The translations under genes were made by a program, and so were the position numbers. Below, piece by piece: positions 5,054-60,524 of a stretch of 64,000 nucleotides of DNA (position 1 is the first letter of the stretch; each line of letters starts with the position of its first letter). A model generated the notes under the pieces. That model did not search any database, was not told the origin of the DNA, and saw only the letters and a program-made list of their open reading frames with translations. Origin of the DNA: Novosphingobium arvoryzae (GTDB lineage: Bacteria > Pseudomonadota > Alphaproteobacteria > Sphingomonadales > Sphingomonadaceae); NCBI RefSeq assembly GCF_014652615.1, contig NZ_BMZD01000006.1, positions 124,001-188,000 of the forward strand. Direction: 5' to 3'.

Positions 5054-5529
5054 GACTTCGTCCTGAACCGCTTGATCGTGCCGGAAAAGGCCAGCACGTT
5101 CCGCTCCCCCTCCGCGATCATCCCGCGCACGAACACCAGGCTGCCCCCGGCGCGCACCACTTCGCCGCGCGCGGTCAGCAGCTTGCCCGGTTCCGCCGCA
5201 CCGACGAATTCGCAATTCATCGTCACGGTCACGCCATGCACCGCCGTGTCCATGCCGCCCGCGATCATGAACAGGGCATAGTCGGCAAACGTCATCAGGG
5301 CGCCGCCGTGGATATTGCCGCCACCGTTGCGGTTCTTCGCCTCGGGCATGAACGCGCACTCGATCCCGTCGCCGTCCGGGCGGCAGAAGAACGGGCCGGC
5401 GTGTTCCTCGAAGTGATCGACCGGTTCCCAGCGATACCAGCCCGCCCACGGCCCTTCGGTCATCTGCGCCAGGCCCGGACGCAGCGACGGCAGATCGGGC
5501 TGAAGCTTGTCATGCGGATGTTCGGACAT
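5050..5529 (-). CDS. PaaI-family hotdog acyl-CoA thioesterase
   Basis: Predicted hotdog-fold thioesterase (159 residues) that hydrolyses acyl- or aryl-CoA esters in the cytoplasm. The GGNIHGGALMTFADYA segment is the hallmark of PaaI/YbgC-type enzymes (acidic residue after HGG in the long helix). The frame is open much further upstream, but that part is the tRNA-Gly gene and intergenic DNA, so the start is placed at the methionine at 5529 (MSEHPHDK). Substrate cannot be told from sequence. Confidence 0.85.
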   Translation of the reverse strand: MSEHPHDKLQPDLPSLRPGLAQMTEGPWAGWYRWEPVDHFEEHAGPFFCRPDGDGIECAFMPEAKNRNGGGNIHGGALMTFADYALFMIAGGMDTAVHGVTVTMNCEFVGAAEPGKLLTARGEVVRAGGSLVFVRGMIAEGERNVLAFSGTIKRFRTKS

Positions 5530-5577
5530 CGGTTGCGCCTTCAAGGGGGGAAACAGGATCCGCCAGCGCATGCGGGC

Positions 5578-5651
<74 letters not shown>

Positions 5652-5793
5652 GCATCAGCGCTGCTGATCGGACGGCGGCGCTTGCCACCAAGTCCGGTGC
5701 GCCGTCAATCACTTTACCGCGCGCGAAAGTCAAGGTCGCCCGCGCCAGCCGCCGCGCTGCTGCCCCGCTGCTGCGGCCCTGCATCAAACCGCC

Positions 5794-5831
5794 TTGACCA
5801 AGTGAACGTTATCAGTTAGGTGAACGTTCAC
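5794..5831 (+). promoter_or_regulatory. Candidate promoter and double LacI-type operator for the receptor gene
   Basis: Two copies of GTGAACGTT start 18 bp apart, at 5802 and 5820; the second completes a perfect 12-bp palindrome GTGAACGTTCAC (5820-5831). A TTGACC hexamer at 5794-5799 lies just upstream, with TAGGTG 17 bp further on as a weak -10. A regulator bound here would cover the -35/-10 region. The same core, GAACGTTC, recurs before the GH3 gene (16955-16962), and a LacI regulator is encoded in the locus. Confidence 0.65.
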
Positions 5832-5883
5832 AATCGGCGGTCCTGCACTTGGATCGCACGAGAAACGGGAGGAGAATCGGATT

Positions 5884-8853: not shown

Positions 8854-8888
8854 TCGGCCCAGACCGATCCGCAAGGTGAGTTGAGGAC

Positions 8889-8923
8889 AAGAGCCGCGCT
8901 GCCCCCGCAGTGCGGCTCTTTTT
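8889..8923 (+). terminator. Intrinsic terminator after the receptor gene
   Basis: Twelve-base-pair stem (8891-8902 with 8907-8918, one G-U pair) closed by a CCCC loop and followed directly by TTTTT (8919-8923). It sits 35 bp after the receptor stop and 36 bp before the first halogenase gene. It would lower read-through, keeping receptor mRNA in excess over the downstream enzymes unless those have their own promoter. Confidence 0.88.
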
Positions 8924-8959
8924 CTCTGGCGACAGGCAAATGTCCGGTATGGTCGGGGC

Positions 8960-10501
8960 GTGATGACGGGTTCGATTCAACGCGTGGTGATTGTCGGCGG
9001 AGGCACCGCCGGGTGGCTGGCGGCCGGGCTGCTGGCCGCGCGCCGGCCCGATTTGTCTGTCACCCTGATCGAAGCCCCCGATATCCCGACCATCGGCGTC
9101 GGCGAAGGCACCTGGCCGACGATGCGCGAAACGCTGGCCAGCATCGGCATCGCCGAGGAGGAGTTCCTGCGCGAATGCGACGCCAGCTTCAAGCAGGGCT
9201 CACGCTTTGACGGCTGGGTCGATGGCACCGCGGCTGACAGCTACCTCCACCCCTTCACCGCCCCGCCGCCGGGGGACATGCGCGACCTGCTGGCCGCGTG
9301 GCGGGCAAGCTGCCCGGATGCGCCCTTCGCCGCCGCGATGACCCCGCAGGCCGCCGCCTGCGCGCGCGATCTGGCCCCGCGCCAGCGGGCGATGCCGCCT
9401 TATGCTGGCGCGCTGAACTATGGCTATCACCTTGACGCGGGCAAGTTCGCCGCGCTGCTCGCCCGCCATGCCACCACCCGGATGGGCGTGACGCGGATCG
9501 CTGCCGAAGTGACCGGCGTGATCGCGGCCGACAATGGCGACATTGCCGCGCTCACCCTGCGCGATCAACCAGCACTGGCGGGCGACCTGTTCCTCGATTG
9601 CTCCGGCCAGGCCGCGATCCTGATCGGCGGACATTGCGATGGCGGCTGGATCGACCGCAGCGACGTGTCCTTCAACGACCGCGCGCTGGCCGTGCAGGTG
9701 CCGACCGCGCGCGATGCGCCCATTGCCGCGCAGACTGTCGGCACCGCCCATGCCGCTGGCTGGCTGTGGGACATCGCATTGCCCACCCGGCGCGGGATCG
9801 GCTGCGTCTATGCCGCGCGCTTCATGGATGAGGAAGCCGCGCGGGCCGTGCTGCTCGACTATGTCCGCACCCACGTTCCCGGCGCTGATGCAGACCAGTT
9901 GCAGCCCCGCCAGCTGATTTTCCGCACCGGCCACCGCGAGCGGTTCTGGGATCGCAATTGCCTGGCCATCGGCCTGTCCGCCGGGTTCATCGAGCCGCTG
10001 GAAGCATCGGCCATCGTCCTGATCGAACTGTCGCTGAACGCGCTGATCGAAAACTTTCCCGCCAGCCGCGCCGCGATGACGATCCATGCCAGCCGCTTCA
10101 ATGAACTTTTCCGCTATCGCTGGGACCGCATCGTCGAGTTCCTGAAACTGCACTATGCCCTGAGCCGCCGCAGCGAACCCTACTGGCTGGCCCAGCGCGC
10201 TCCGGACACGATCCCGGCCCGGCTGGCCGAACAGCTGGAACTGTGGCGAGACCAGCCGCCGTCCAGCTGGGACTTCCCGCGCGTGGACGAGATCTTTTCC
10301 GCCGCCAGCCAGCAATACGTCCTTTACGGCATGGGCTGGCCCGCCCCGCCTGCCGCCGCGCCATCACCCGCCGCTGCTGCGCGGCTGGTCGAAGTGCGCG
10401 AGCGCGCCCGCGCGCTGGCCGCCGCACTGCCCGCCAACCGCACCTACTTCACCGCCGCAGCCGCTGCTGCCGCGCCGCACGAAAGACTTGTCCGGACATG
10501 A
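8960..10501 (+). CDS. Tryptophan 7-halogenase family flavoprotein A
   Basis: FADH2-dependent halogenase homologue (513 residues). The N-terminal GGGTAGW dinucleotide-binding motif (13-19) is present. Lys78 in ASFKQG matches the lysine that forms the chloramine intermediate in PrnA, and the Glu-containing EPLE motif follows near residue 345. The WxWxIP signature is altered to WLWDIA (268-273). Either GTG 8960 or ATG 8963 could start translation. It is the first of five overlapping genes ending with GH16. No NRPS, PKS or tryptophan-metabolite genes lie nearby, so its substrate is unknown; family members of this subgroup often sit beside TonB-dependent receptors. Confidence 0.9.
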
Positions 10502-11217
10502 GCAACCACCAGATCCTGAACCCCGCCGATCACGGGACCTTGCGCGTCCACACCGGGGCGGGTGCGCAGTTTGGCGATACGGTGATGGCCTGCCTGACCG
10601 TGCCGCTGGAATTCCGCGCGGTGCAGGCCCACTACCCCATCGTGTTCCGCCGCGATGCCGCCAGCGGGCAGTTTTCCGCGCTGGCGATGTTCGGGTTCGA
10701 CAACGGTGAGAACCTGTTCCTTGAAGGGGACCGCTGGGATGCGCGCTATCGCCCGCTGGCGATGGCGATCCAGCCATTCCTGATCGGCCGGCCGGCCGCT
10801 GGGAGCGACACGCCGCAAGTCCACATCGACATGTCCCACCCGCGCATCGACCACGGCGGCGAAGGCACCCGCCTGTTCGACGAGGACGCCCGCCCCACGC
10901 CTTACCTCGAAACGATGGCCGGGCGGCTGGGTGATCTGGACCACGGCTACCGCCAGTATCCCGCGTTCTTCGCCGCGCTGGAACGGCACGACTTGCTGGA
11001 GCCTTTCACATTGGACGTGCCGCTGGACAACGGCGCGCGCCATTCGCTGGTCGGCTATCACGTGATTGCCGAGGACCGGCTGGCCGCGCTGGATGGCGGC
11101 GCTCTGGGCGAATTGCAGCTTGAAGGACAGCTGCTGCCGATCTTCATGGCGGTCGCCTCGCTGGGGCGGTTTGCCGATCTGGTGGCGCGCAAGAATGCAC
11201 GGGTCGCCCTTGGCTGA
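10498..11217 (+). CDS. SapC-family protein
   Basis: A 239-residue protein of the SapC family (motif HYPIVFRRD near residue 44, then the conserved [10 protein letters not shown] region). The family name is historical: there are no membrane segments and it is not an ABC permease. Its role is unknown, but it travels with tryptophan-halogenase homologues and JmjC-like cupins beside TBDR genes in several proteobacteria. The start at 10498 overlaps the halogenase A stop (ATGA), which rules out longer versions of the frame. Confidence 0.85.
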
Positions 11218-12241
11218 AACCGCCGCCTCGCCCCTGAGCCGCCTGCCCGCCGTGGCAGAGCGCAGCGCGGCTGATGCCGCCGCGCTCGACGCCCTGCTGC
11301 GCGGCGCGCGTGAGCCATTCGTGCTGCGCGGGCTGGTGGCGGACTGGCCGCTGGTCCGGGCCGGGCTGGAATCCCCCCGCGCGGCCCGCGCCTATCTGCT
11401 GGAACGCGCCCGCGAAGTGCCGTTCGCCGTGTCCATCGGCGAACCGGGGCACGACGGACGGATGTTCTATGACGCCGCAATGGGGATGAATTTCCGCATG
11501 GCGCGCGGGCGGCTGGCGGATATCTTCGCCGGGATCGACGCCAACGAAGGGCGCGCCGACGCGCCCACCATCTACCTCGCCTCGATCGATGTGCCGGGCC
11601 ATTTCACCACGGTCGATGCCGAAAACAGCGTCGAACTGGGCGACCGCGACCCGCTTGCCAGCCTGTGGATCGGCACCCCCACCACCATCGCCGCGCATAA
11701 CGACTTTCCCGACAACCTGGCCTGCTGCGTGGCCGGTCGCCGCCGCTTCACCCTGTTTCCGCCCGATCAGTTCGCCAACCTTTACCTTGGCCCGGTGGAC
11801 AACACACCCGCTGGCCGCGCGGTCAGCATGGTAGATTTCCGCGCGCCGGACTTTGCCGCCCACCCCCGCTTCGCCGCCGCGTTGGAGCAGGCCCAGGTGG
11901 CGGAACTGGAACCGGGCGATGCGCTGTTTGTGCCGTCGATGTGGTGGCACCATGTCGAAGGGCTGGCCCCGTTCAACATCCTGCTCAACTACTGGTGGCG
12001 AGACACGCCGCGCTGGCTGGGCCAGCCGCAGGACGCGCTGAACCACGCCATGCTGGCAATTCGCGACCTGCCCGCCGCCGACAAGGCGATCTGGCGCGAA
12101 CTGTTCGACCACTATGTTTTCGACAACGGGCCGCTCGTTACCGACCATATCCCGGCCGGTGCGCGCGGCGTGCTGGACCCGCTGACCGCCGAATCCGCCG
12201 GACGCCTGCGGGCCTTTCTGCTGAGGACCCTGAGCCGATGA
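11195..12241 (+). CDS. JmjC-like cupin protein (cupin_8 family)
   Basis: A 348-residue predicted non-haem iron and 2-oxoglutarate-dependent oxygenase of the FIH/cupin_8 type. The metal-binding HxD is HND (168-170), within IAAHNDFPDN, and the distal histidine lies in PSMWWHHV (His252). The family usually hydroxylates protein side chains; no activity is known for this subgroup. The ATG at 11195 overlaps the sapC end by 23 bp; a TTG at 11210 is an alternative start. Gene order halogenase-SapC-cupin-halogenase suggests the four products act on one target. Confidence 0.85.
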   Translation: MHGSPLAETAASPLSRLPAVAERSAADAAALDALLRGAREPFVLRGLVADWPLVRAGLESPRAARAYLLERAREVPFAVSIGEPGHDGRMFYDAAMGMNFRMARGRLADIFAGIDANEGRADAPTIYLASIDVPGHFTTVDAENSVELGDRDPLASLWIGTPTTIAAHNDFPDNLACCVAGRRRFTLFPPDQFANLYLGPVDNTPAGRAVSMVDFRAPDFAAHPRFAAALEQAQVAELEPGDALFVPSMWWHHVEGLAPFNILLNYWWRDTPRWLGQPQDALNHAMLAIRDLPAADKAIWRELFDHYVFDNGPLVTDHIPAGARGVLDPLTAESAGRLRAFLLRTLSR

Positions 12242-13740
12242 AAAGCGAATATACCAGCCGCCGGATCGTGATCGCCGGGGGCGGCACCGCCGGATGGATG
12301 GCCGCCGCCGCACTGGCGCGGACGATGGGCCACGCGATCGACCTCACGCTGGTCGAATCCGATGCCATCGGCACGGTCGGCGTGGGCGAAAGCACGATCC
12401 CGCCGCTGGTCACCTACAACCGCCTGCTGGGGATCAGCGAGGCCGAATTCATGCGCGAGACGCAGGCCACCTTCAAGCTGGGGATCGAGTTCGAGAACTG
12501 GAAGCAGCAGGGCGAGAAGTACTTTCACTCCTTCGGGCTGACCGGGCGCGATCACTGGTCGGCAGGGTTCCAGCATTTCTGGCTGCACGGGCTGACCAAG
12601 GGCCACACCGCCAGTTTCGACGATTACTGCCTGGAGCTGAAGGCAGCCCATGAGGGCCGGTTCGCCCACCTGCCCGACAACCGCATGAACTATGCCTATC
12701 AGCTCGATTCCACGCTCTATGGCCGGTACTTGCGCAAGCTGGCTGAAGCGGACGGGGCCAAGCGCGTGGAAGGGCGGATCGCGCAAGTCGAACTCGCGCC
12801 GGAAAGCGGCAATATCGCCGCGCTGGTGCTGGACGGCGGGCAGCGGATCGAGGGCGACCTGTTCATCGACTGCACCGGCTTTCGCGCGCTGCTGATCGAG
12901 GGGGCGCTGCACGTCGGCTATGACGACTGGACGCATTACCTGCCATGCGACGGGGCCATCGCAGTGCAGACCGCCAGCGTCCGCGCGCCGATCCCCTATA
13001 CCCGCGCCATTGCGCACGATGCGGGGTGGCAGTGGCGCATTCCGTTGCAGCACCGCCAGGGCAACGGCATCGTCTATTGCAGCCGCTATCTGGAGCGTGA
13101 CGCCGCGCTCGACCGGTTGCTGTCCACTGCCGAAGGCCAGCGGCTGACCGAGCCGAACTTCATCCGGTTCACCACCGGTGCGCGGCGCAAGCAGTGGCAC
13201 CGCAACTGCATCGCCGTGGGCCTGTCAGGCGGGTTCCTGGAACCATTGGAATCGACCAGCATCCACCTGATCCAGCGCGCGATCCTGCGCCTGATCCGGA
13301 TGCTGCCGATGGGCGAAGTGAGCGAGCGCGACGTTGCCGAATTCAACGACCAGCAGCTGACCGACATGTATCAGGTCCGCGATTTCCTGATCCTGCACTA
13401 CAAGGCCACCGAACGCCGCGACAGCCCGTTCTGGCGGCAATGCGCGGCGATGGAAATCCCCGACAGCCTGACCCAGAAGATCGAACTGTTCCGCGAAACC
13501 GGCCGCGTGTTCCGCCGCAACGAGGAACTGTTCGCCGAGAACAGCTGGGTCCAGGTGATGATGGGTCAGGGGATCATGCCCAAGGCTTACCACCCGGTCG
13601 CCACCAAGCTGAGCGATGCCGAACTGGAGCAGCTGCTGGCCGGCCTGCGCGACAGCGTGGAGAAGACCGTCGCCAGCCTGCCGGAACACCACGCCTATGT
13701 GGCGCGCTATTGCGGCGTGGTGGATGCCGCAGCGGCATGA
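12238..13740 (+). CDS. Tryptophan 7-halogenase family flavoprotein B
   Basis: Second FADH2-dependent halogenase homologue, 500 residues. All family signatures are intact: GGGTAGW (14-20), Lys80 in TFKLG, WQWRIP (264-269, the flavin-halogenase WxWxIP motif) and the EPLEST motif (335-340) with the catalytic-region glutamate. It is clearly diverged from halogenase A. The start overlaps the cupin stop (ATGA) and its own stop overlaps the GH16 start (ATGA), so it is coupled in translation to a secreted glucanase. A flavin reductase, which such enzymes need, is not encoded in the locus. Confidence 0.92.
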   Translation: MKSEYTSRRIVIAGGGTAGWMAAAALARTMGHAIDLTLVESDAIGTVGVGESTIPPLVTYNRLLGISEAEFMRETQATFKLGIEFENWKQQGEKYFHSFGLTGRDHWSAGFQHFWLHGLTKGHTASFDDYCLELKAAHEGRFAHLPDNRMNYAYQLDSTLYGRYLRKLAEADGAKRVEGRIAQVELAPESGNIAALVLDGGQRIEGDLFIDCTGFRALLIEGALHVGYDDWTHYLPCDGAIAVQTASVRAPIPYTRAIAHDAGWQWRIPLQHRQGNGIVYCSRYLERDAALDRLLSTAEGQRLTEPNFIRFTTGARRKQWHRNCIAVGLSGGFLEPLESTSIHLIQRAILRLIRMLPMGEVSERDVAEFNDQQLTDMYQVRDFLILHYKATERRDSPFWRQCAAMEIPDSLTQKIELFRETGRVFRRNEELFAENSWVQVMMGQGIMPKAYHPVATKLSDAELEQLLAGLRDSVEKTVASLPEHHAYVARYCGVVDAAAA

Positions 13741-14669
13741 TCCGGAGCGGGCTGGCCGTGCTGGCGCTGGCCGTCAGCCATCCCGTCTGGGCTGAAGAGT
13801 GGCAGCTCGTCTGGGCCGACGAGTTCGACGGCACCGCCATCGACCCCGCCAAGTGGGGCTTCGAGGTCGATTGCTGGGGCGGCGGCAACAATGAACGGCA
13901 GTGCTACACCGCCAGCACCCGCAACGCGGCGGTGGTGGACGGCAAACTGGTCATCACCGCGCGCCGCCAGCGCGCCACCGGCCCCGCCCTGCCCAAGGCG
14001 CTGCGCACTGCCGGGACCGATCAGAACGCGGTGGTCAGCCGTGATTTCACCTCGGCCCGCCTGACCACCAAAGGCAAGGCCGCGTGGCGCTATGGCCGGA
14101 TCGAGGTGCGCGCCAGCCTGCCGCAAGGGCAGGGCACCTGGCCCGCGATCTGGATGCTGCCAGAGGCTGACCGCTATGGCCGCTGGGCCGCATCGGGCGA
14201 AATCGACATTCTGGAAGCCGTCAACCTGGGCGTGCCATGCGCGGCCTGCCCCGGCGGGCGGGAAAACACAATCCTCGGCACGCTGCACTTTGGCGGCGTC
14301 TGGCCCGCCAACGCCCAGGCCAGCACCGAAGTCCACGCGCCGCAAATGCTGGAGGGCTTTCACACTTACGCCATCGAGTGGCAGCCAGACCGGATCGTCT
14401 GGCAGATCGATGGTCGCACTTTTGCAGAGCGGCGTTCCAGCGAATGGTGGTCCGCCGGGTCCACCGCGCCGGGGGCGCCGTTCGACCAGCCGTTCCACCT
14501 GATCCTGAACCTCGCCATCGGCGGCAAACTGGCTGAAACGCGAGGGGCTGGCGGCATCTCGGACCGCGATTTCCCCAAGCAGCTGGCGATTGACTGGGTT
14601 CGCGTCTGGCAAAAGCCTGCCGACCCGGCTACCGCTGCGGCTGGCGAGGCCAACCGGGGGGGCAAGTAG
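13737..14669 (+). CDS. GH16 endo-beta-glucanase (laminarinase type)
   Basis: Secreted glycoside hydrolase family 16 enzyme, 310 residues, expected to cut beta-1,3 or mixed-linkage beta-glucans inside the chain. A signal peptide (about residues 1-19, ends VWA) is followed by the lectin-like jelly roll. The catalytic motif is GEIDILEAV: nucleophile Glu155, Asp157 and acid/base Glu160, in the form with the extra residue typical of laminarinases. The ATG at 13737 overlaps the halogenase B stop. The frame stays open upstream, but the signal peptide fixes the start. Confidence 0.92.
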   Translation: MIRSGLAVLALAVSHPVWAEEWQLVWADEFDGTAIDPAKWGFEVDCWGGGNNERQCYTASTRNAAVVDGKLVITARRQRATGPALPKALRTAGTDQNAVVSRDFTSARLTTKGKAAWRYGRIEVRASLPQGQGTWPAIWMLPEADRYGRWAASGEIDILEAVNLGVPCAACPGGRENTILGTLHFGGVWPANAQASTEVHAPQMLEGFHTYAIEWQPDRIVWQIDGRTFAERRSSEWWSAGSTAPGAPFDQPFHLILNLAIGGKLAETRGAGGISDRDFPKQLAIDWVRVWQKPADPATAAAGEANRGGK

Positions 14670-14672
14670 CGC

Positions 14673-15734
14673 ATGGCGAGGCGGCGGCAGGCTGTCACCA
14701 TCAAGCACGTGGCTGCGGACGCTGGCGTGTCCCTGCAGACGGTCAGCCGCGTCATCAACAACGAGCCGAACGTCCGTGCCGAGATGAAGCAGCGGGTGCA
14801 GGCCTCGATTGACAAGCTGGGCTATGTCCCCTCGATCGCCGCCCAGCGGATGAGCGGATCGCGCTCCTACCTGATCCTCGCCATCAACGACCGCGAACGC
14901 ACCATTGCCGACTGGCGTGCCCGGCAAGGGACCGACTGGGTCGACCAGATGCTGCTGGGCGGAATGCTGAAATGCGCCGAGCACGGCTATCGGATGATCT
15001 TCGAGCTGATCGACACCCATGACGACCATGTCGAGCGCGAACTGCTGGCCGCGATTGCCGCCTTGCAGCCCGATGGCATCATCCTGACCCCGCCGCATTC
15101 CGACAATCCCCAGATCGTGGCGTTCCTGGCCGGTCAGAACATCCCGTTCGTGCGGATCGGATCGCACGAGGACGGCGCGGGCATTCCGCTGTCGATGGAT
15201 GATGAAGGGTCGGCCCGCACCGCCACCCGCTATCTGATCGGGCGCGGCCATGCCCGCATCGGGTTCATCGCCGGATCGGACGAATACAACCTCAGCGGCT
15301 GGCGCGTCGATGGCTGGCGTGCGGCCATGGCCGAGGCGAACCTGCCAACCGAGGCGCTGCTGGAAGCGGGCGATTTCAGCTATGCCTCGGGCGAGCGCGC
15401 CGCCCGCCGCCTGCTGCAACTGCCGCAGCGCCCCACCGCGATCATTGCCAGCAATGACCAGATGGCACTCGCCACGCTGGAAGTCGCGCGCGATCTGGGG
15501 CTGACGGTGCCGGATGACCTCTCGGTCATCAGTTTCGACAACACCCCGCTGGTCCACTTCACCCAGCCGCCGCTGACCGCCATCGACCAGCCGATTGCCG
15601 CCACGGCATCGCGCGCGGTCGAACTGATCATCGCCGCACAGAAGGGCGAGGAACGCCCCGCCGAACTGACCGTGATTTCCGCCGATCTGGTCGAGCGCGG
15701 CTCGGTCGCCCCGCCGCCCGCCAGCATCCGTTAA
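14673..15734 (+). CDS. LacI-family transcriptional regulator
   Basis: Cytoplasmic sugar-responsive repressor, 353 residues. The N-terminal helix-turn-helix reads VTIKHVAADAGVSLQTVSRV (about residues 7-26) with the LacI hinge LGYVPSIAAQRM, then a periplasmic-binding-protein-like effector domain. It lies 3 bp after the GH16 stop and 7 bp before the MFS gene, inside the glucan locus. The GAACGTTC palindromes before the receptor and GH3 genes have the even symmetry and CG centre expected of LacI operators and are its likely targets. Confidence 0.93.
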   Translation: MARRRQAVTIKHVAADAGVSLQTVSRVINNEPNVRAEMKQRVQASIDKLGYVPSIAAQRMSGSRSYLILAINDRERTIADWRARQGTDWVDQMLLGGMLKCAEHGYRMIFELIDTHDDHVERELLAAIAALQPDGIILTPPHSDNPQIVAFLAGQNIPFVRIGSHEDGAGIPLSMDDEGSARTATRYLIGRGHARIGFIAGSDEYNLSGWRVDGWRAAMAEANLPTEALLEAGDFSYASGERAARRLLQLPQRPTAIIASNDQMALATLEVARDLGLTVPDDLSVISFDNTPLVHFTQPPLTAIDQPIAATASRAVELIIAAQKGEERPAELTVISADLVERGSVAPPPASIR

Positions 15735-52079: not shown

Positions 52080-55000
52080 TCAGCCTTCCGCCAGCGGTTT
52101 CCCATCATCGCGCAGGACAATGTAGATCGCCGGGATGACCAGCACGGTCAGCAGGGTCGACGACATCAGCCCGAACAGCAGCGAGATTGCCAACCCCTGG
52201 AAGATCGGGTCGGTCAGGATCACCGCCGCGCCGATCATCGCCGCCGCCGCCGTCAGCACGATCGGGCGGAACCGGATCATCCCGGCTTCCAGCAGGGTTT
52301 CACGCAGGGACTTGTCGGCGCTGCGGGTGTGATTGATGAAATCGACCAGCAGGATCGAATTGCGCACGATGATCCCGGCCAGCGCGATGAACCCGATCAT
52401 CGAGGTTGCGGTGAACGGCGCATTGAACAGGATGTGGCCGATCACGATGCCCACCAGCGTCAGCGGTACCGGAGTAAGGATCACCAAGGGGATCGTGAAG
52501 CTGCGGAACTGGCCCACGACCAGCACATAGATGCCCAGCAAGGCCACCATGAACGCCGCGCCCATATCGCGGAACGTCACCCAGGTGATTTCCCATTCGC
52601 CATCCCACAAGAGCGAGACGCGGCTTTCGTCATCCGGCTGGCCGTTGAGCAGCACATCGGGCTTTTGCAGGCCCTTGCCCGCCCAGTCGAACGCATCGAC
52701 CGCGTCGGCCACGGCAAGCATGCCATAGATCGGCGCTTCATAGCGGCCGGCGAGTTCCGCCGTCACCATCGTCGCCCCGCGCCCGTCGCGGCGGAAGATC
52801 GCCTGCCCGCCCGGTTCCATCCGCGCGGTGACGAGTTCGCCCAGCTGGATCAGCTGGCCGGATGGCGCCACCGCCACCGGGGTCGCCGCCAGCGCGGCGG
52901 ACCAGCTGCGCTGCGACTGGTCGAGCGACAGTTCGATCGGCAGCGGATCGCGATCCGCACCGCGCGCGGCATAGCCGACGATTTGCGTGCCCATCAGCGC
53001 GCCGATGCTGTCAAACAGCTGGCGTTCGGATAACCCGTAGTGGTCCAGCTTGGCCCGGTCGGGGATCAGCTTCAGCGTCGGGCGCGGCTGGCCGAAACTG
53101 TTGTCGACATCGACGATATAGGGAACCGACTTGAAGATCTGCTCCACCTGCTCCGCCGTCTTGCGCCGGGTCGCTTCGTCCGGGCCATAGATTTCGGCCA
53201 GCAGGGTCGCCAGCACTGGCGGCCCCGGCGGGGTTTCCACGACCTTGAGCGAGCCACCCGCCGGGAGCGCAATGGCCTTCAGCTTTTCGCGCAAGTCCAC
53301 CGCCACGTCATGGCTGGAGCGTGAGCGGTCGCCCTTGGGCAGCAGGGTGACCATCAGGTCGCCCATTTCCGGCTGGGCGCGCAGGAAGTAATGCCGCACC
53401 AGTCCGTTGAAGTTGAACGGGGCGGATGCGCCGACATAAGCCTCCATCGAGACGACTTCCGGCACGGTGCGCGCCACGGCGGCGGCCTGCTCCAGCACCC
53501 GCGCGGTGCTTTCCAGGCTGGTGCCTTCGGGCAGGTCGGCCACCAGCTGGACTTCGCTCTTGTTGTCGAACGGCAGCAGCTTCACCGTCACCGCCTTGAA
53601 ATAGAACATCGAGCACGCCACCAGCGTGGCCACGCCCACCCCGATGAGGAATCGCTTGGCGCTTTGCGGGGTGGCGATCACCTTGCTGGCGTAGTGCCGG
53701 TAGAGCGTGCCCAGTTTGCCGCCGTGGTCATCATGCCCGTGGCCGTGACCTTCACCGGCCAGTGCCTTGCGGGCAAAACGGATCATCAGCCAGGGCGCGA
53801 TGATCACCGCAACGAAGAACGAAAAGATCATCGCCGCCGACGCGTTGATCGGGATCGGCGCCATGTAGGGCCCCATCAGGCCAGACACGAACAGCATCGG
53901 CAACAGCGCGGCGACCACGGTCAGCGTGGCGATGATCGTGGGGTTGCCGACTTCGGCCACGGCCTCGACCGCGGCGTCGATCCGGGTGCGCCCGCCGTCC
54001 GTGCCAACATCCGGCATCGCCCAGTGGCGGGCGATATTCTCGATCATCACGATCGCGTCGTCGACCAGGATGCCGATGGAAAAGATCAGCGCGAACAGGC
54101 TGACGCGGTTGATGGTAAAGCCCATCACGTTCGATGCGAACATCGTCAGCATGATCGTGGTCGGGATGACGATGGCGGTCACCCCCGCCTCGCGCCAGCC
54201 GATCGTGAAGCCGATCAGCGCGACGATGGAAATCGTCGCCAGCGCGAGGTGGAAGATCAGCTCATTCGCCTTTTCGTTGGCGCTTTCGCCATAGTTGCGG
54301 GTTACCGCCACATCGACGCTGGCGGGTATCAACCGCCCCTTCAGCGTTTCGACGCGGTGGACCACGCTTTCCGATACGGTCACCGCGTTAGCCCCGGCGC
54401 GCTTGGCAATGGCGATGCTGACGGCGGGGGCCATCGTCCACTGGCCGTCTTCACCCTTGACCCAGCGCCACGCGCGGGCCTGATCCTGCGTCGCGGCCTG
54501 CTCCACCCGCGCAACGTCCGACAGCAGCACCGGCGCGCCGCCGACCGACCGCACGGTCAATCCGGCGAGTTCCTGCGCATCGCGCAGCGTCTGCCCGGCC
54601 ACGACGAGCGCTGCCTGCCCGCCTTCGCGCACGGTTCCGGCCGGAAAGGCGCGGTTGGCCTGGCTGACGGCCTCGATAAGGTTGCCCAGCGGCACGCGGT
54701 AGAGCGCCAGCTTGGCCGGGTCCGGCACCACGCGCAGCGCCATGCGCTGCCCGCCGGTCAGGAAAGTCAGGCCAATGTCATCGACCTTGGCAATCTCGGT
54801 CCGCAGCTTGCCCGCCAGTTCAGCCAGCGCCTGGTCGTTCCAGTTGCCCGCCGCGCCGGGCTTCGGCGTCAGCGTCAGCACCACAATGGGCACGTCGCTG
54901 ATCCCGCGCACCGTCACTTGCGGCGCGGGGATGCCCACCGGAATGCGGTGCTTGTTGGCCTCGATCTTTTCATTGATGCGGATCGCGGCGTCTTCCGGGT

Positions 55001-55313
55001 CGGACCCGACGAGGAACCGCGCCGTCACCATCGCGCCGTTATCCTGCGCCTGGGTATAGACGTGCTCGACCCCGTCGACGCTCTTGACGATGGTTTCCAG
55101 CGGCTTGGCCACCAGTTCCACGGCTTCGGGCGCGGACAGGCCCGGTGCCTGGACCATGATGTCCACCATCGGCACCTTGATCTGCGGCTCTTCCTCACGC
55201 GGGATGGTGATCGTGGCTATCAGGCCGACGATCATCGCCGCCAGCAGCATCAGCGGAGTCAGCGGGGACTGGATCGTCGCCCGCGTCAGCTTGCCGGAAA
55301 TCCCCAGGTTCAT
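52080..55313 (-). CDS. RND efflux pump inner-membrane permease
   Basis: Proton-driven resistance-nodulation-division transporter, 1077 residues, 12 helices with two large periplasmic domains. The proton-relay pair Asp-Asp lies in IGILVDDAIVMIE (about residue 415). The cytoplasmic loop between the two halves has a His-rich run HGHGHDDHGGK (about 520-530). The ATG overlaps the adaptor gene stop by 4 bp, so the two are coupled. Part of a minus-strand set rhodanese-adaptor-permease, divergent from SQR-DUF2892-TolC. Confidence 0.94.
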   Translation of the reverse strand: MNLGISGKLTRATIQSPLTPLMLLAAMIVGLIATITIPREEEPQIKVPMVDIMVQAPGLSAPEAVELVAKPLETIVKSVDGVEHVYTQAQDNGAMVTARFLVGSDPEDAAIRINEKIEANKHRIPVGIPAPQVTVRGISDVPIVVLTLTPKPGAAGNWNDQALAELAGKLRTEIAKVDDIGLTFLTGGQRMALRVVPDPAKLALYRVPLGNLIEAVSQANRAFPAGTVREGGQAALVVAGQTLRDAQELAGLTVRSVGGAPVLLSDVARVEQAATQDQARAWRWVKGEDGQWTMAPAVSIAIAKRAGANAVTVSESVVHRVETLKGRLIPASVDVAVTRNYGESANEKANELIFHLALATISIVALIGFTIGWREAGVTAIVIPTTIMLTMFASNVMGFTINRVSLFALIFSIGILVDDAIVMIENIARHWAMPDVGTDGGRTRIDAAVEAVAEVGNPTIIATLTVVAALLPMLFVSGLMGPYMAPIPINASAAMIFSFFVAVIIAPWLMIRFARKALAGEGHGHGHDDHGGKLGTLYRHYASKVIATPQSAKRFLIGVGVATLVACSMFYFKAVTVKLLPFDNKSEVQLVADLPEGTSLESTARVLEQAAAVARTVPEVVSMEAYVGASAPFNFNGLVRHYFLRAQPEMGDLMVTLLPKGDRSRSSHDVAVDLREKLKAIALPAGGSLKVVETPPGPPVLATLLAEIYGPDEATRRKTAEQVEQIFKSVPYIVDVDNSFGQPRPTLKLIPDRAKLDHYGLSERQLFDSIGALMGTQIVGYAARGADRDPLPIELSLDQSQRSWSAALAATPVAVAPSGQLIQLGELVTARMEPGGQAIFRRDGRGATMVTAELAGRYEAPIYGMLAVADAVDAFDWAGKGLQKPDVLLNGQPDDESRVSLLWDGEWEITWVTFRDMGAAFMVALLGIYVLVVGQFRSFTIPLVILTPVPLTLVGIVIGHILFNAPFTATSMIGFIALAGIIVRNSILLVDFINHTRSADKSLRETLLEAGMIRFRPIVLTAAAAMIGAAVILTDPIFQGLAISLLFGLMSSTLLTVLVIPAIYIVLRDDGKPLAEG

Positions 55314-56338
55314 TGGGCGGCCGCCTGCTTCGGGGCGACCAGCGTATCGCCCGCCACCGCGCCGGACAGGATTTCCACCTTGCCCGCCTCAAGCGAAGGG
55401 CCGGTCTGCACCGGCACGTCCGCCGCGCTGCCATCCTTGGCAAGGACGGTGACGTAATCGATCCCGAACCGGCTGGAGATGTAATTCGCTGGCACCAGCA
55501 GCGCCTTGCGCGTGCCGGTTTCCACACGTGCCGCGACACGCCGCCCGATCAGGCGGTTGTCGATGCCGGGCATGTCGACATCGGCGGTCACTTTGCCCGC
55601 CGTGATCGCGGGGTAGAGCTTGATGACAGTGCCGACGCCGGACCCGGTGCCGATCCCGGTGGCCATCACGCGCGATCCGGGGCGGACCTTGTCGGCCAGC
55701 GATTCGGGCATTTCCAGCCGCACGATGGTCGGTCCGGCGGTGATGACGGCAATCGCCATGCCCGGCGCGACCGGCGATCCGGCCGGCACGTCGGCGCGCA
55801 GCACGCGGCCTGTCGCCGGGGCGATCACCGCGCCCTGCCCCGCCACCGCGCCAACGGCGGCCTGCTGGGCCTGCGCGGCGCGGATCTGGGCCGTGGCGGC
55901 AGCGGCGGCAGCTTCGGCCTGATCCAGCCGCGCCTTGGCATAGACGCCGTTCTGATAAAGGAACTTCACCCGCACCAGTTCAGCCTGCGCCTGCGCCGCC
56001 TGTGCCTGTGCGGCGGCGGCTTGCGCCCCGTAAGCGCTGGACTGGTACCCCAGCTGGGTATCGACGATCCGGCCAATCGCCTGCCCCTTGGTCACCATAT
56101 CGCCTTCGCGCACGGTCAGGGTGGTGAGGATGCCGGGGATGCGGGCGAGAACCTGCGCCTGATCGACGGTGGCGATTTCCGCGCTGACGTCCTGCCAGGC
56201 GGCGGTATCCGCCGCCGCCAGCACCAGCCGGGGACCGGCGGGGGCCTGGACGACCGGAGCCGTTTCCTCAGCGCTGCCGCAGCCCGCCAGCGTCAGGGCC
56301 AGCGCCGCCGCGCCAAGGGCCAACCAGGTCTTCCGCAT
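55310..56338 (-). CDS. RND efflux periplasmic adaptor lipoprotein
   Basis: Membrane-fusion protein (HlyD/AcrA type), 342 residues, joining the RND permease to TolC. Lipobox LAGC (Cys about 20), a barrel-sandwich half motif (VREGDMVTKGQAIGRI), an Ala/Gln-rich coiled-coil hairpin (about 100-165) and a beta-barrel. ATG 56338 has AGGGG 7 bp upstream, better placed than the ATG at 56344. Confidence 0.92.
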   Translation of the reverse strand: MRKTWLALGAAALALTLAGCGSAEETAPVVQAPAGPRLVLAAADTAAWQDVSAEIATVDQAQVLARIPGILTTLTVREGDMVTKGQAIGRIVDTQLGYQSSAYGAQAAAAQAQAAQAQAELVRVKFLYQNGVYAKARLDQAEAAAAAATAQIRAAQAQQAAVGAVAGQGAVIAPATGRVLRADVPAGSPVAPGMAIAVITAGPTIVRLEMPESLADKVRPGSRVMATGIGTGSGVGTVIKLYPAITAGKVTADVDMPGIDNRLIGRRVAARVETGTRKALLVPANYISSRFGIDYVTVLAKDGSAADVPVQTGPSLEAGKVEILSGAVAGDTLVAPKQAAAQ

Positions 56339-56372
56339 CGCCATTCCCCTGCTGTTCGCGCGCGCTACTTGC

Positions 56373-56711
56373 TTACCGTTCGACCGGCAGGCCAGCTGCC
56401 TGCCAGGCGTTAAACCCGCCGGCCAGGTGCGTATCGACCGCCGCCTGCGCGACCCCGCACTTTTCCAGCGCCATGCCCGAACGCTTGCCGCCCAGGCAGT
56501 TCAGCACCAGTTGCTTGTCGCCGGTGTCCGGCAGCTGCGAGGGCTGGAACGTGGACAGCGGCATGTTGATCGCGCCGGGGATATGACCCTGCGCGAATTC
56601 GTCCACTTCGCGCACATCTACCACCACCACTTCGCCCGCACGCACCATCGCGTCCAGTTCCTGCGCGGTCACTTCCCGGTGCGCGGCGCCCTTGCCAAAT
56701 CCGAAGACCAT
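56373..56711 (-). CDS. Single-domain rhodanese
   Basis: A 112-residue sulfurtransferase domain. The active-site loop is Cys72 in NCLGGKRSGM, preceded by the conserved VVVDVREVDEFAQGHIPGA. It would carry a persulfide and hand sulfane sulfur to cyanide, thiols or a partner. First gene of the minus-strand set with the RND pump, and divergent from an SQR gene; both point to a sulfide or polysulfide role. MVFGFGKG start at 56711 is chosen; upstream residues fall in the promoter region. Confidence 0.9.
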   Translation of the reverse strand: MVFGFGKGAAHREVTAQELDAMVRAGEVVVVDVREVDEFAQGHIPGAINMPLSTFQPSQLPDTGDKQLVLNCLGGKRSGMALEKCGVAQAAVDTHLAGGFNAWQAAGLPVER

Positions 56712-56780
56712 TCGATCACCCTTTCCTTCAGTGTCCCTGCCGACAGTTGGTGCCGCCAACGGGGATCACAACATTACCGC

Positions 56781-56813
56781 TTGCTCATATTATAATTGCC
56801 TTATATAAGTCAA
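56781..56813. promoter_or_regulatory. AT-rich divergent control region of the sulfur/efflux genes
   Basis: In the 193-bp gap between rhodanese (minus) and SQR (plus), an AT-rich tract stands out from GC-rich flanks. It contains the inverted repeat TATAA-TTGCC-TTATA (56791-56805), the palindrome CTTATATAAG (56800-56809) and a minus-strand TTGACT (56813-56808). One regulator could control both directions; the protein is not known. Confidence 0.5.
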
Positions 56814-56904
56814 GTGCGTTGCTGGCGGGTCCTGAAGAAACCCCTGGCCGGAAACGCAGTGGTGGCGGCCCCGCCGGGCGGGACCAGAGGACGGGAGAAT
56901 GGGA

Positions 56905-58185
56905 ATGTCATTGCCCCAGATCATCATTCTTGGCGCAGGGCTGGGCGGCACCATCGCCGCCTATGAAATTCGCGACGCGGTAAAGGGCAAAGCGACCGTT
57001 ACCGTCGTCAACGACCAGGAGGACTACTGGTTCGTCCCCAGCAACCCGTGGGTTGCGGTGCGCTGGCGCGAGCCGGATGCGATTCGCGTCCACCTGCCCC
57101 CGATCATGGCGCGCAAGGGCATCGGCTTTACCTCGGTCGGGGCAAAGCGCGTCCATCCGGCTGAAAACCGCGTGGAACTGAACGACGGCACATCGCTTTC
57201 CTATGACTATCTGGTGATCGCCACCGGGCCGGACCTGGCCTTTGACGAGGTCGAGGGACTGGGCCCGGCCGGCTTCACCCAGTCGATCTGCAAGACCGAT
57301 CACGCCGCCCACGCGGCTGATGCGTTTGAGGCATTCTGCGCCAATCCCGGCCCCATCGTGGTCGGCGCGGCGCAGGGCGCATCGTGCTATGGCCCGGCCT
57401 ATGAATTCGCACTGATCCTCGACACGGAACTGCGCCGCCGCAAGATCCGCGACCGGGTGCCGATGACCTACATCAGCCCCGAACCCTATATCGGCCATCT
57501 GGGGCTGGACGGGGTCGGCGACACCAAGACCCTGCTGGAAAGCGAGCTGCGCAACCGCCACATCAAGTGGATCACCAATACCCGCATCACCAAGGTCGAA
57601 AGCGGGACGATGCATGTGGAGGAAGTGGCCGAGGACGGCGCGGTCAAGGACACCCACGATCTGCCGTTCGGCTATTCGATGATCCTGCCGGCCTTCCGGG
57701 GCATCGCGGCGGTCCACGGGATCGAAGGGCTGACCAACCCGCGCGGGTTCGTCCTGGCGGACAAGCACCAGCGCAACCCCACCTTCAGGAACGTCTATTC
57801 GCTGGGCGTCTGCGTCGCGATCCCGCCGATCGGGCCGACCCCGGTGCCGGTGGGCGTGCCCAAGACCGGGTTCATGATCGAATCGATGGTCACCGCCATT
57901 GCCCACAACCTGAAGCTGGAACTCGACGGCAAGGAACCGACCGAGGAAGCGACCTGGAACGCGGTCTGCCTGGCCGACTTCGGCGATGGCGGCGTGGCCT
58001 TCGTCGCCCAGCCGCAGATCCCGCCGCGCAACCTCAACTGGTCGTCCAGCGGCAAGTGGGTGCACCTCGCCAAGATCGGGTTCGAGAAATACTTCCTCCA
58101 CAAAGTCCGGCGCGGGACCAGCGAGCCGTTCTATGAAAAGCTGGCGATGCACGCGCTGGGCATCCGCAAGCTGCGCTTCAAGTAA
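56905..58185 (+). CDS. sqr: Sulfide:quinone oxidoreductase (type I-like)
   Basis: Membrane-associated FAD enzyme, 426 residues, that oxidises sulfide to sulfane sulfur and passes electrons to quinone. Dinucleotide motif LGAGLGGT (9-16). Three cysteines fall at the positions known for Acidithiobacillus SQR (128, 160, 356): Cys129 in SICKTD, Cys161 in GASCYGP and Cys354 in NAVCLAD. The PVPVGVPKTGFMIESM segment is also typical. ATG 56905 has GGGAG 7 bp upstream; ATG 56899 is too close to it. Followed by a DUF2892 gene after 12 bp. Confidence 0.9.
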   Translation: MSLPQIIILGAGLGGTIAAYEIRDAVKGKATVTVVNDQEDYWFVPSNPWVAVRWREPDAIRVHLPPIMARKGIGFTSVGAKRVHPAENRVELNDGTSLSYDYLVIATGPDLAFDEVEGLGPAGFTQSICKTDHAAHAADAFEAFCANPGPIVVGAAQGASCYGPAYEFALILDTELRRRKIRDRVPMTYISPEPYIGHLGLDGVGDTKTLLESELRNRHIKWITNTRITKVESGTMHVEEVAEDGAVKDTHDLPFGYSMILPAFRGIAAVHGIEGLTNPRGFVLADKHQRNPTFRNVYSLGVCVAIPPIGPTPVPVGVPKTGFMIESMVTAIAHNLKLELDGKEPTEEATWNAVCLADFGDGGVAFVAQPQIPPRNLNWSSSGKWVHLAKIGFEKYFLHKVRRGTSEPFYEKLAMHALGIRKLRFK

Positions 58186-58197
58186 GGAGAACGTCCC

Positions 58198-58401
58198 ATG
58201 ACTCTCGATGCCGCCGTGCTGCGTTTCGCCGGGTTCGTCGTCATCGCCAGCGCCTTGCTGTCGATTTACGTGCACCCCTACTGGATCGGGCTGACGATCT
58301 TTGCGGGCCTCAACTTGCTGCAATCCAGCTTCACCGGGTTCTGCCCAGCCGCCACGGTGTTCAAGAAGCTGGGCGTGCGGCCCGGAAACGCGTTCAAGTA
58401 A
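58198..58401 (+). CDS. DUF2892 (YgaP-type) small membrane protein
   Basis: A 67-residue protein with two hydrophobic segments and the family signature FTGFCPAATVFKKLG near the C-terminus. In E. coli YgaP this module is fused to a rhodanese domain; here the rhodanese is a separate divergent gene. The motif cysteine may take part in sulfur transfer at the membrane (inference). Lies between SQR and TolC. Confidence 0.88.
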   Translation: MTLDAAVLRFAGFVVIASALLSIYVHPYWIGLTIFAGLNLLQSSFTGFCPAATVFKKLGVRPGNAFK

Positions 58402-58418
58402 GCGGAAAAAGACAGCCG

Positions 58419-59684
58419 ATGCGCCGCCTGATCCTGCCGCTCACCGCCCTCGCCTGCTGCCTGTCCGCCCCGGCGGCGCGGGCGCAGGACCTGGCCGCCG
58501 CGATTGCCGATGCCCTTGCCAACGCCCCCGCGCTGGCCGAGGCCAAGGCCGGGGAAGCCGCCGCCAGGGCGCGGCTCGATCAAGCCAGGGCCGAGGGCAA
58601 TCCGCTGCTGCGGGTCGAAGGCTCTTACGGCGCGGGGCGGATCGACAACGGCGGGTTCTTCGGGATCACGGCGGACAACGTCAGCCCGCTGGCGGTGCAG
58701 GCCACGGCGGAAATGCCGCTCTATGCCGGGGGCCGGATCGCCGCTGCCACAGCGCAGGCGCGCGGCGGTACCGACATCGCCCGGCTGGGAGCCGAACAGG
58801 CCCGGCTGCAAACCATCGTCCGCGCGGTCGCGGCCTATTCCGATGTCCTAACCACCCGCAAGCTGGAGGCGCGCTTTGCCCAGCTCGTCACCGCCTTGAC
58901 CGAGATGGAGCGGCAGGCCGGCCTGCGCTTCAAGGCGGGCGAAATCGCCAGTTCCGATGTGGCGCAGGCCCGCGCCCGCAAGGCAGAGGCCGACGCCGGG
59001 TTCGCGCAGGCCGCAGGCCGCCGTATTGCGGCTGAGGCGGCCTATGAACGGCTGACCGCCAAACAACCCGGCGATCTGGCTCCGCTGGCCGATCTGCCGC
59101 CCGTGCCCCCATCGCTGGGCGAGGCGCTGGAACAGGCCCGCGCCGCCAACCCGGCGCGCCAGCAGGCCGAAGCCGCCGTCGCCGTCGCCCGCGCCGGGGT
59201 GCGCGCCGCACAGGCCGAGGGCCTGCCCACCGTTGGTGCCTTTGCCGAAGCGGCGCACGTGCGCGACCAGTTCTTCCCCGGCTACAAGGCGGATTCCGTT
59301 TCCGTCGGCGTGCGCGGCCGCTGGACGCTGTTCGCGGGCGGGCGCGTGGCCGCCAAGATCCGCGCCGCCGATGCCGAAGTGGACGCCAGCGCGGCGCGGC
59401 TGCGGCAGGCCGATCAGGCATTGGACGGCATGGTAATCGATGCCTGGCAAGGCCTTGCCACGGCCCGCCAGATGGTCGCCGCATCGCGCCTGCGCCGCGA
59501 TGCGGCCGCCGAGGCGCTGCGCGGCACCCGGCTGGAAGCGCAAGTCGGCGCGAAACCGACGCTGGCCGTGCTCGACGCCGAACGCGAGAACATCGAGGCT
59601 GAGGCCGCGCTGCTTCAGGCCGAGGCGATGCAGACCCTCTCAGCCTGGCAGCTGGGCGCGCTGACCGGGCAACTGGGGCGTTAA
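58419..59684 (+). CDS. TolC-family outer-membrane efflux protein
   Basis: Outer-membrane channel, 421 residues. Signal peptide ends near residue 21 (ARAQ), then two TolC repeats of long Ala/Glu/Arg-rich helices; no lipobox. It would complete the tripartite pump with the divergent adaptor and RND permease. Starts 17 bp after the DUF2892 gene; its stop is 3 bp from the convergent LysR gene stop. Confidence 0.9.
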   Translation: MRRLILPLTALACCLSAPAARAQDLAAAIADALANAPALAEAKAGEAAARARLDQARAEGNPLLRVEGSYGAGRIDNGGFFGITADNVSPLAVQATAEMPLYAGGRIAAATAQARGGTDIARLGAEQARLQTIVRAVAAYSDVLTTRKLEARFAQLVTALTEMERQAGLRFKAGEIASSDVAQARARKAEADAGFAQAAGRRIAAEAAYERLTAKQPGDLAPLADLPPVPPSLGEALEQARAANPARQQAEAAVAVARAGVRAAQAEGLPTVGAFAEAAHVRDQFFPGYKADSVSVGVRGRWTLFAGGRVAAKIRAADAEVDASAARLRQADQALDGMVIDAWQGLATARQMVAASRLRRDAAAEALRGTRLEAQVGAKPTLAVLDAERENIEAEAALLQAEAMQTLSAWQLGALTGQLGR

Positions 59685-59687
59685 CGC

Positions 59688-60524
59688 CTAACCCACGACC
59701 GTCTCTGCAAGTGCCGACCGGACCGCCGGATGCGGTGCGGTGTGCGCGCCCGATACCAGCCCGATCCGCCGCACCGGGCGGAACCCCCGGATATTGACCA
59801 TCGCCACCCCATCCCGCCCCAGCGAACGCGGCGCGACCGTCACCCCCAGCCCGGCCCGGACCATCGCCATCACCCGGTCATCGTTGGCAGAGCGCAGCGC
59901 GAACAGCGGGCGCACGCCGTGCTGGGTGAAGAACCGGCTGGTATCGGCCAGCACTTCGCAGGCACGCCGTGCGATCATGGTGTCTCCGGCGACGTCTGCT
60001 GCCTCCACCCAGGCATTACCAGCCAGCGGATGCGATGCCGGCAGGGCCATGCAATAGTCCTCCTCCAGCAGCGCCCCCGCCCCATCGCCGACCAGCGTCA
60101 GCGCCAGATCGATGCTGCCGCTGGCGAGCGCGGCGGAGAGTTCGCGTTCTGAGCCCTCGGTCAGTTCCAGTGGCTCATCCCCGGCATAGGCGGCAACCGC
60201 GCGTTCCAGCCAGCCGGTTGCAACCGTGTCCAGCACCCCCAGCCGCACCGGGCGCGCGGGGACGGGGAGGCTGCCCACCTGCCGTTCGGCCAGATGGAAA
60301 TCCCGCTCGATCCCGCGCGCGAGCGGCAGCAGCGCATTGCCCGCCGGGGTCAGCCGGATTCGGCGGCGTTCGCGCACGAACAGGCGCGTGCCGAGTTGCC
60401 GTTCCAGTTCCGCAATCCCGCCCGACAGCGATGGCTGCGCGATGTTCAGCACACCCGCCGCGCGGGTGAAGCTGCCGGAATCGACAACGGCCAGGAATTG
60501 CCGGATCTGGGTGCGGCTTAGCAT
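59688..60524 (-). CDS. LysR-family transcriptional regulator
   Basis: DNA-binding regulator, 278 residues, with N-terminal winged helix (FTRAAGVLNIAQPSLSGGIAEL, written here in part: SFTRAAGVLNIAQPS) and a type-2 periplasmic-binding effector domain. Two cysteines lie in the effector domain (Cys158 and Cys189). Adjacent to tolC (3 bp, convergent) and divergent from the acyl-CoA carboxylase gene. A 15-bp palindrome overlaps its start codon, which suggests autorepression. Target could be the efflux/sulfur genes or the catabolic genes. Confidence 0.92.
   Translation of the reverse strand: MLSRTQIRQFLAVVDSGSFTRAAGVLNIAQPSLSGGIAELERQLGTRLFVRERRRIRLTPAGNALLPLARGIERDFHLAERQVGSLPVPARPVRLGVLDTVATGWLERAVAAYAGDEPLELTEGSERELSAALASGSIDLALTLVGDGAGALLEEDYCMALPASHPLAGNAWVEAADVAGDTMIARRACEVLADTSRFFTQHGVRPLFALRSANDDRVMAMVRAGLGVTVAPRSLGRDGVAMVNIRGFRPVRRIGLVSGAHTAPHPAVRSALAETVVG

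Follow-up and report, generated by a model that had tools for sequence, protein, structure and literature searches.

What does an RND efflux pump do beside genes for sulfide oxidation? The question is raised by six genes in the stretch of DNA analyzed here (the window, 64,000 nucleotides of a Novosphingobium arvoryzae contig), which the first-pass annotation had described as two divergent units sharing a 193-bp control region and forming one system. Analysis of the open reading frames with Pfam and NCBIfam searches confirmed the divergent block, with every gene on the strand and in the order claimed. Outward from the control region, the minus strand encodes a single-domain rhodanese (56373–56711; Pfam Rhodanese, 7.6e-16), a periplasmic adaptor or membrane fusion protein (55310–56344; NCBIfam RND_mfp, 6.8e-35, above the cut-off), and an RND permease (52080–55313; Pfam ACR_tran, 7e-146), the adaptor and permease genes overlapping by four bases. 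The three genes on the plus strand encode a predicted type I sulfide:quinone oxidoreductase (SQR, 56905–58185, with the Acidithiobacillus SQR as best solved relatives), a DUF2892/YgaP-like transmembrane protein of 67 amino acids (58198–58401; Pfam YgaP-like_TM, 7.2e-10), and a TolC-family outer-membrane channel (58419–59684; Pfam OEP, 3e-47), which a LysR gene (59688–60524) directly adjoins. The length of 193 bp applies to an SQR that begins with the ATG at 56905, the position from which most SQR homologues align; with the alternative upstream ATG at 56899 it becomes 187 bp.

All three catalytic cysteines of SQR are present, as C131, C163, and C357 when numbered from 56899, or as 129, 161, and 355 from 56905; of the positions given earlier (C129, C161, and C354), the last was one residue off. 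Their counterparts in the alignment to the Acidithiobacillus SQR are C128, C160, and C356, the type I positions, and all three are invariant in 95 of 95 homologues. The best match among solved structures is the Acidithiobacillus enzyme (3SZ0; 468.8 bits, 1.4e-139), with 32 bits for the mitochondrial SQR and 47 bits for a relative of FCSD. The cysteine positions and the closest structures place the window SQR in type I, with the corresponding activity predicted. The rhodanese carries the active-site loop C72-LGGKR, in which Cys72 is kept in 68 of 69 homologues, and Cys49 of the DUF2892 protein lies in a GFCP motif, with the cysteine kept in 94 of 94 homologues. Such an invariant cysteine would fit a sulfur carrier, a role for which conservation is no proof.

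Mapping of the permease (1,077 amino acids) onto AcrB identified the proton-relay residues D418, D419, R984, R1014, and T1021. The equivalents of AcrB D407, D408, R971, and T978 are conserved, and R984, at the position of AcrB Lys940, is an arginine in all 94 homologues. The adaptor has a LAGC lipobox with Cys22 and is probably a lipoprotein. With a permease, an adaptor, an outer-membrane channel, and a conserved proton relay, the block is predicted to encode a full tripartite RND pump. In its own genome the permease matches itself (100%) and one paralogue (88%), the next RND protein being only 26% identical, and this drop indicates that the pump subfamily is discrete. The score against the CusA/CzcA model TIGR00914 was 268.9 bits, far below the curated cut-off of 701.45, and the identity of a heavy-metal HME-RND pump was rejected. 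Scores against two curated models of HAE-1 multidrug subfamilies also fell below their cut-offs (429.9 bits against 1250 and 256 against 940), and the permease appears from these models to be HAE-1-like yet outside the named HAE-1 subfamilies. In the AcrB drug pocket, Phe136 and Phe178 correspond to Pro and Thr, and Tyr327 to an invariant Arg; since porter residues map poorly at such low identity, a reading of the substrate from this pocket was dropped.

To place the block in a wider context, we scanned the genome collection with SQR and analyzed the best 80 loci, from Sphingomonadales, Caulobacterales, Rhodobacterales, and Hyphomicrobiales among others, counting genes within 7 kb; because contig ends truncate several of the loci, all counts are lower bounds. 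The RND permease and DUF2892 were each found in at least 66 of the 80 loci, the adaptor in at least 65, an ArsR, dithiol or not, in at least 56, the rhodanese in at least 54, TolC in at least 36, and persulfide-dioxygenase-like and TauE genes in at least 22 each. The pump is divergent from SQR in at least 55 of the 80. All six genes in the divergent layout of the window, whose search in other genomes had been proposed at the outset, recur in at least 32, with TolC joining the block chiefly among Sphingomonadales and Caulobacterales. The block is conserved far beyond chance, and the possibility that it is confined to this strain, which would have counted against the original reading, does not hold.

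Neighborhoods were also collected starting from the pump, with 6-kb flanks, at 36 alphaproteobacterial loci and 14 loci of other Pseudomonadota, and 20 RND loci of the same class retrieved with AcrB served as controls. The pump homologues are 54–88% identical in the alphaproteobacteria and 36–46% in the other Pseudomonadota. DUF2892 was found near the pump at 29 of 36 and 9 of 14 loci, compared with none of the 20 controls (p 1e-9), and a dithiol ArsR at 26 of 36 and 6 of 14, again with none in the controls (p 6e-8). SQR was found at 20 of the 36 alphaproteobacterial loci versus 1 of 20 controls (p 1e-4), leaving 16 that lack it within 6 kb; rhodanese (11/36 versus 0/20) and TolC (7/36 versus 1/20) were rarer. 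Among 190 alphaproteobacterial genomes, 18 have the pump and 10 have type I SQR, with 8 genomes having both, 10 only the pump, and 2 only SQR (Fisher p 5e-8); type I SQR is thus missing from 10 of the 18 pump genomes, and of 11 pump genomes in which SQR is not adjacent, 5 gave no SQR-like match at E 1e-6. A search for another neighbor common to the pump loci without SQR found none. In Azospirillum, the order is DUF2892, ArsR, adaptor, RND, and rhodanese. These counts indicate that the core partners of the pump are ArsR and DUF2892 rather than SQR: the core is ArsR, DUF2892, adaptor, and RND, to which some lineages have added SQR, rhodanese, TolC, dioxygenase, and TauE. The idea of a single system therefore stands as a conserved sulfide-linked unit whose pump subfamily is tied to genes of sulfane sulfur, and is weakened where it ties the pump to SQR as such. 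The pump loci and genomes without SQR point to sulfane sulfur of whatever origin as the inducer, and to a substrate that SQR need not have made.

The pump subfamily or its relatives are carried by 50 plasmids. The conjugative plasmid pISP1 of Sphingomonas sp. MM-1 (L257) bears the full block and an ArsR gene beside cydAB, cydX, and CydDC; bd oxidases resist sulfide. A TlpA-like gene also lies beside the block on pISP1.

A shared operator was found in the control regions. When the intergenic regions of 63 divergent SQR loci were searched for a palindrome by expectation-maximization, ATAT-N12-ATAT was recovered with a score of 439, compared with 36 in shuffled sequence; some 59 of the 63 divergent promoters contain it, about six of them with one base off. 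In the window it has a single match, ATATTATAATTGCCTTATAT at 56787–56806 in the divergent control region, where 0.05 matches were expected, and this is a putative operator of the block. The whole genome has 13 sites, against 1 for a reversed-pattern control. The palindrome is unspecific beyond divergent promoters, occurring within the 6-kb flanks of 15 of 36 pump loci and 5 of 20 control RND loci, and was rejected as a marker of whole loci. The ArsR proteins linked to these blocks match best YgaV, HlyU, BigR, and the ArsR of structure 6O8N, which a review calls SqrR, and match metal sensors such as SmtB and CzrA less well; two cysteines are kept in nearly all of them. In the Novosphingobium clusters (L010–L022 and L004), an ALCxxC stretch contains the second cysteine, while most of the more distant relatives have YC or FC at their end, and the spacing of the sensing pair may differ between these groups. 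Several Caulobacterales blocks (L046, L049, L055, L058, L059, L062, and L082) contain a pair of ArsR genes, of which one follows RND and the other lies between rhodanese and SQR. Separately, near-perfect palindromes ATATAAAG-N4-CTTTATAT were observed at C1:213223, just upstream of a gene for an ArsR-methyltransferase fusion, and at C2:123174; they possibly mark a separate regulon.

Analysis of the rest of the 3.29-Mb genome revealed a second copy of the block (C3:546000–565000, L004, positions 5121–15512), fuller than that of the window. The two copies share 89% identity in SQR, 87–88% in RND, 82% in DUF2892, 80% in the adaptor, 78% in TolC, and 68% in the rhodanese. On one side, the second copy has a 1-Cys peroxiredoxin, a dioxygenase of the metallo-beta-lactamase fold, and TauE; on the other, a dithiol ArsR gene directly follows RND. 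The close solved relatives of the dioxygenase include 4YSK (385 bits), which we take to be the persulfide dioxygenase of Pseudomonas putida. A thioredoxin-like gene follows the second block, and at C3:566 kb (L008) lie a second peroxiredoxin gene and then an ArsR gene without the cysteine pair. A third locus, at about 428–431 kb of C3 (L253/L006), has TauE and dioxygenase genes divergent from a dithiol ArsR gene. The reported absence of a persulfide dioxygenase from the window is accordingly correct and only local, as the genome has two elsewhere, both adjoining copies of the palindrome. Three palindromes are stacked between TauE/dioxygenase and ArsR at the third locus, two lie at the paralogous block, and one at the window block, with others elsewhere. 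The window block has no ArsR gene, and its palindrome is shared with the two loci that do have a dithiol ArsR. As the block keeps the operator without the gene, the simplest reading is that either or both of these ArsR proteins control it in trans, and the palindrome common to all three loci places the window block very probably in a regulon for detoxification that would be inducible by sulfane sulfur.

In the phylogenetic tree, the window copy falls among blocks from other Novosphingobium (support 0.91), apart from the second copy of its own genome. A recent duplication within the genome is thus unsupported, and transfer or an older duplication is likelier. At 28 other LysR loci of the genus, the gene beside LysR is mostly an acyl-CoA dehydrogenase and in no case TolC or RND. 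LysR was therefore rejected as the regulator of the block, and the pairing of LysR with acyl-CoA dehydrogenase in the genus makes an insertion or rearrangement of the block beside LysR probable in this genome.

We are highly confident that the block is a regulated sulfide-detoxification unit. The best explanation overall, held with moderate confidence, is a unit of the SqrR/BigR type, inducible by sulfide and persulfide and equipped with its own tripartite RND pump. In the proposed mechanism, a dithiol ArsR encoded elsewhere in the genome would sit on ATAT-N12-ATAT between the two units, as its sequence and characterized relatives suggest. Sulfane sulfur would bridge its cysteines and release it from the operator, turning both units on together. 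SQR, judged by its family and conserved cysteines, would convert H2S to sulfane sulfur and pass the electrons to ubiquinone, and the rhodanese and the DUF2892 membrane protein may handle the sulfane sulfur formed. RND pumps take substrates from the periplasm and the outer leaflet. The pump would capture from there a sulfane-sulfur species or a related toxic product and expel it through TolC, candidate cargoes being polysulfide, an organic persulfide, and S8 dissolved in the membrane. The persulfide dioxygenases and TauE proteins of the other two loci would oxidize the cytosolic fraction and export the sulfite. Relief of repression through the ArsR cysteines has been shown for SqrR (PMC9995734), and a periplasmic location has been reported for one type I SQR (Schutz 1999, as cited in PMC9995734). 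Periplasmic capture by RND pumps together with such a periplasmic enzyme makes the export of polysulfide, persulfide, or S8 plausible. Among the roles predicted for the pump, exporting polysulfide, persulfide, or elemental sulfur ranks as the most probable, though sulfane sulfur can be named as its substrate only tentatively, at somewhat below an even chance. The further proposal that the subfamily is a dedicated sulfane-sulfur exporter, supplying the missing step by which bacteria with SQR place zero-valent sulfur outside and with DUF2892 as the membrane carrier that loads it, is bolder and rather doubtful.

The pump may instead be an HAE-1-type multidrug generalist that came under a promoter responsive to sulfide and that clears out electrophiles or compounds harmful to membranes, without a sulfur substrate in particular. 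We regard this as unlikely, although promiscuity is common among RND pumps, some pump modules have no SQR, and sulfane sulfur is reported to signal to multidrug-resistance regulators in other bacteria (PMC8614764 and PMC9495516); the subfamily is discrete, and its linkage to sulfur genes persists across the alphaproteobacterial and the more distant homologues alike, a persistence over large sequence distance that suggests a dedicated role. Still lower stands the possibility that the pump exports another toxic product of sulfide stress, such as metal-sulfide complexes or metal-thiol adducts, and that the sulfur genes merely share its inducer. The authors of a study on Azospira suillum PS favored metal-sulfide export for its sulfide-induced RND pumps, and deletion of its SQR-RND operon left the rate of sulfide oxidation unchanged, both of which count for this alternative (PMC5358917). 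The histidine-rich cytoplasmic loop of the permease, GHGHGHDDHGG, points the same way, but homologues have anywhere from 0 to 4 histidines in it; moreover, the permease scores far from the CusA/CzcA cut-off (269 against 701 bits) and higher with HAE-1 (430 bits, also below cut-off), and the linked ArsR proteins resemble the YgaV/HlyU/BigR/SqrR type rather than metal sensors. That the SQR and efflux units are chance neighbors, merely divergent and under the adjacent LysR, is highly improbable in spite of the LysR gene adjoining TolC and the lack of an ArsR gene in the window, given the six-gene layout at 32 or more loci, the pump at 66 or more of 80, and the LysR neighborhoods of the genus.

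The sulfane-sulfur reading, with the pump as part of the detoxification unit, offers a specific and testable candidate in a subfamily that extends from Sphingomonadales to other Pseudomonadota and onto plasmids, one of them conjugative. If the pump does export sulfane sulfur, it would add a new class of RND substrate and link sulfide stress to efflux.

Comparison with known systems places the block between several partial precedents. The SQR-RND operon of A. suillum PS (Dsui_3440–3443) was highly expressed under H2S and was flagged by Bar-seq (P 0.0001–0.0005 per gene, P values that carry no direction). These two results favor the detoxification unit proposed here; the unchanged rate of sulfide oxidation after deletion and the preference of the authors for metal-sulfide export weigh against it. 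By gene content alone the operon resembles the window block in joining SQR, RND permease, and adaptor, and a separate DUF2892 gene was induced about 10-fold; it differs in forming one operon that is not divergent, and the sections of the report used here describe no rhodanese, TolC, or regulator with it (PMC5358917). In Rhodobacter capsulatus, type I SQR and rhodanese, as in the window, belong to one regulon, repressed by the dithiol ArsR SqrR and induced by sulfide, but they lie at separate loci (rcc00785 and rcc01557), and no RND pump was among the enzymes examined in that study (PMC9995734). The bigR-type operon on plasmid 1 of Paracoccus denitrificans comprises ArsR, a dioxygenase, a YeeE/DUF6691 pair, and a sulfurtransferase. 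It shares ArsR control and DUF2892 with the window block and has the same pump subfamily directly downstream, the pump lying between this operon and an SQR-like flavoprotein; the window block differs in having SQR, TolC, and rhodanese and in lacking a local dioxygenase, ArsR, and a YeeE-type importer. A literature search for RND, SQR, rhodanese, and DUF2892 in combination did not find the four together. A 2025 survey linked two-cysteine ArsR proteins responsive to sulfane sulfur to sqr, pdo, rhodanese, TauE, and RND genes; its cited part lists the genomic pattern and describes neither a pump subfamily nor a DUF2892 core, an operator, or controls (PMC12423496). In outline, the association of RND pumps with such sulfur genes is already published (PMC5358917 and PMC12423496), and what the present analysis appears to add is the discrete pump subfamily and a DUF2892-ArsR core that is in part independent of SQR, together with the operator and controls.
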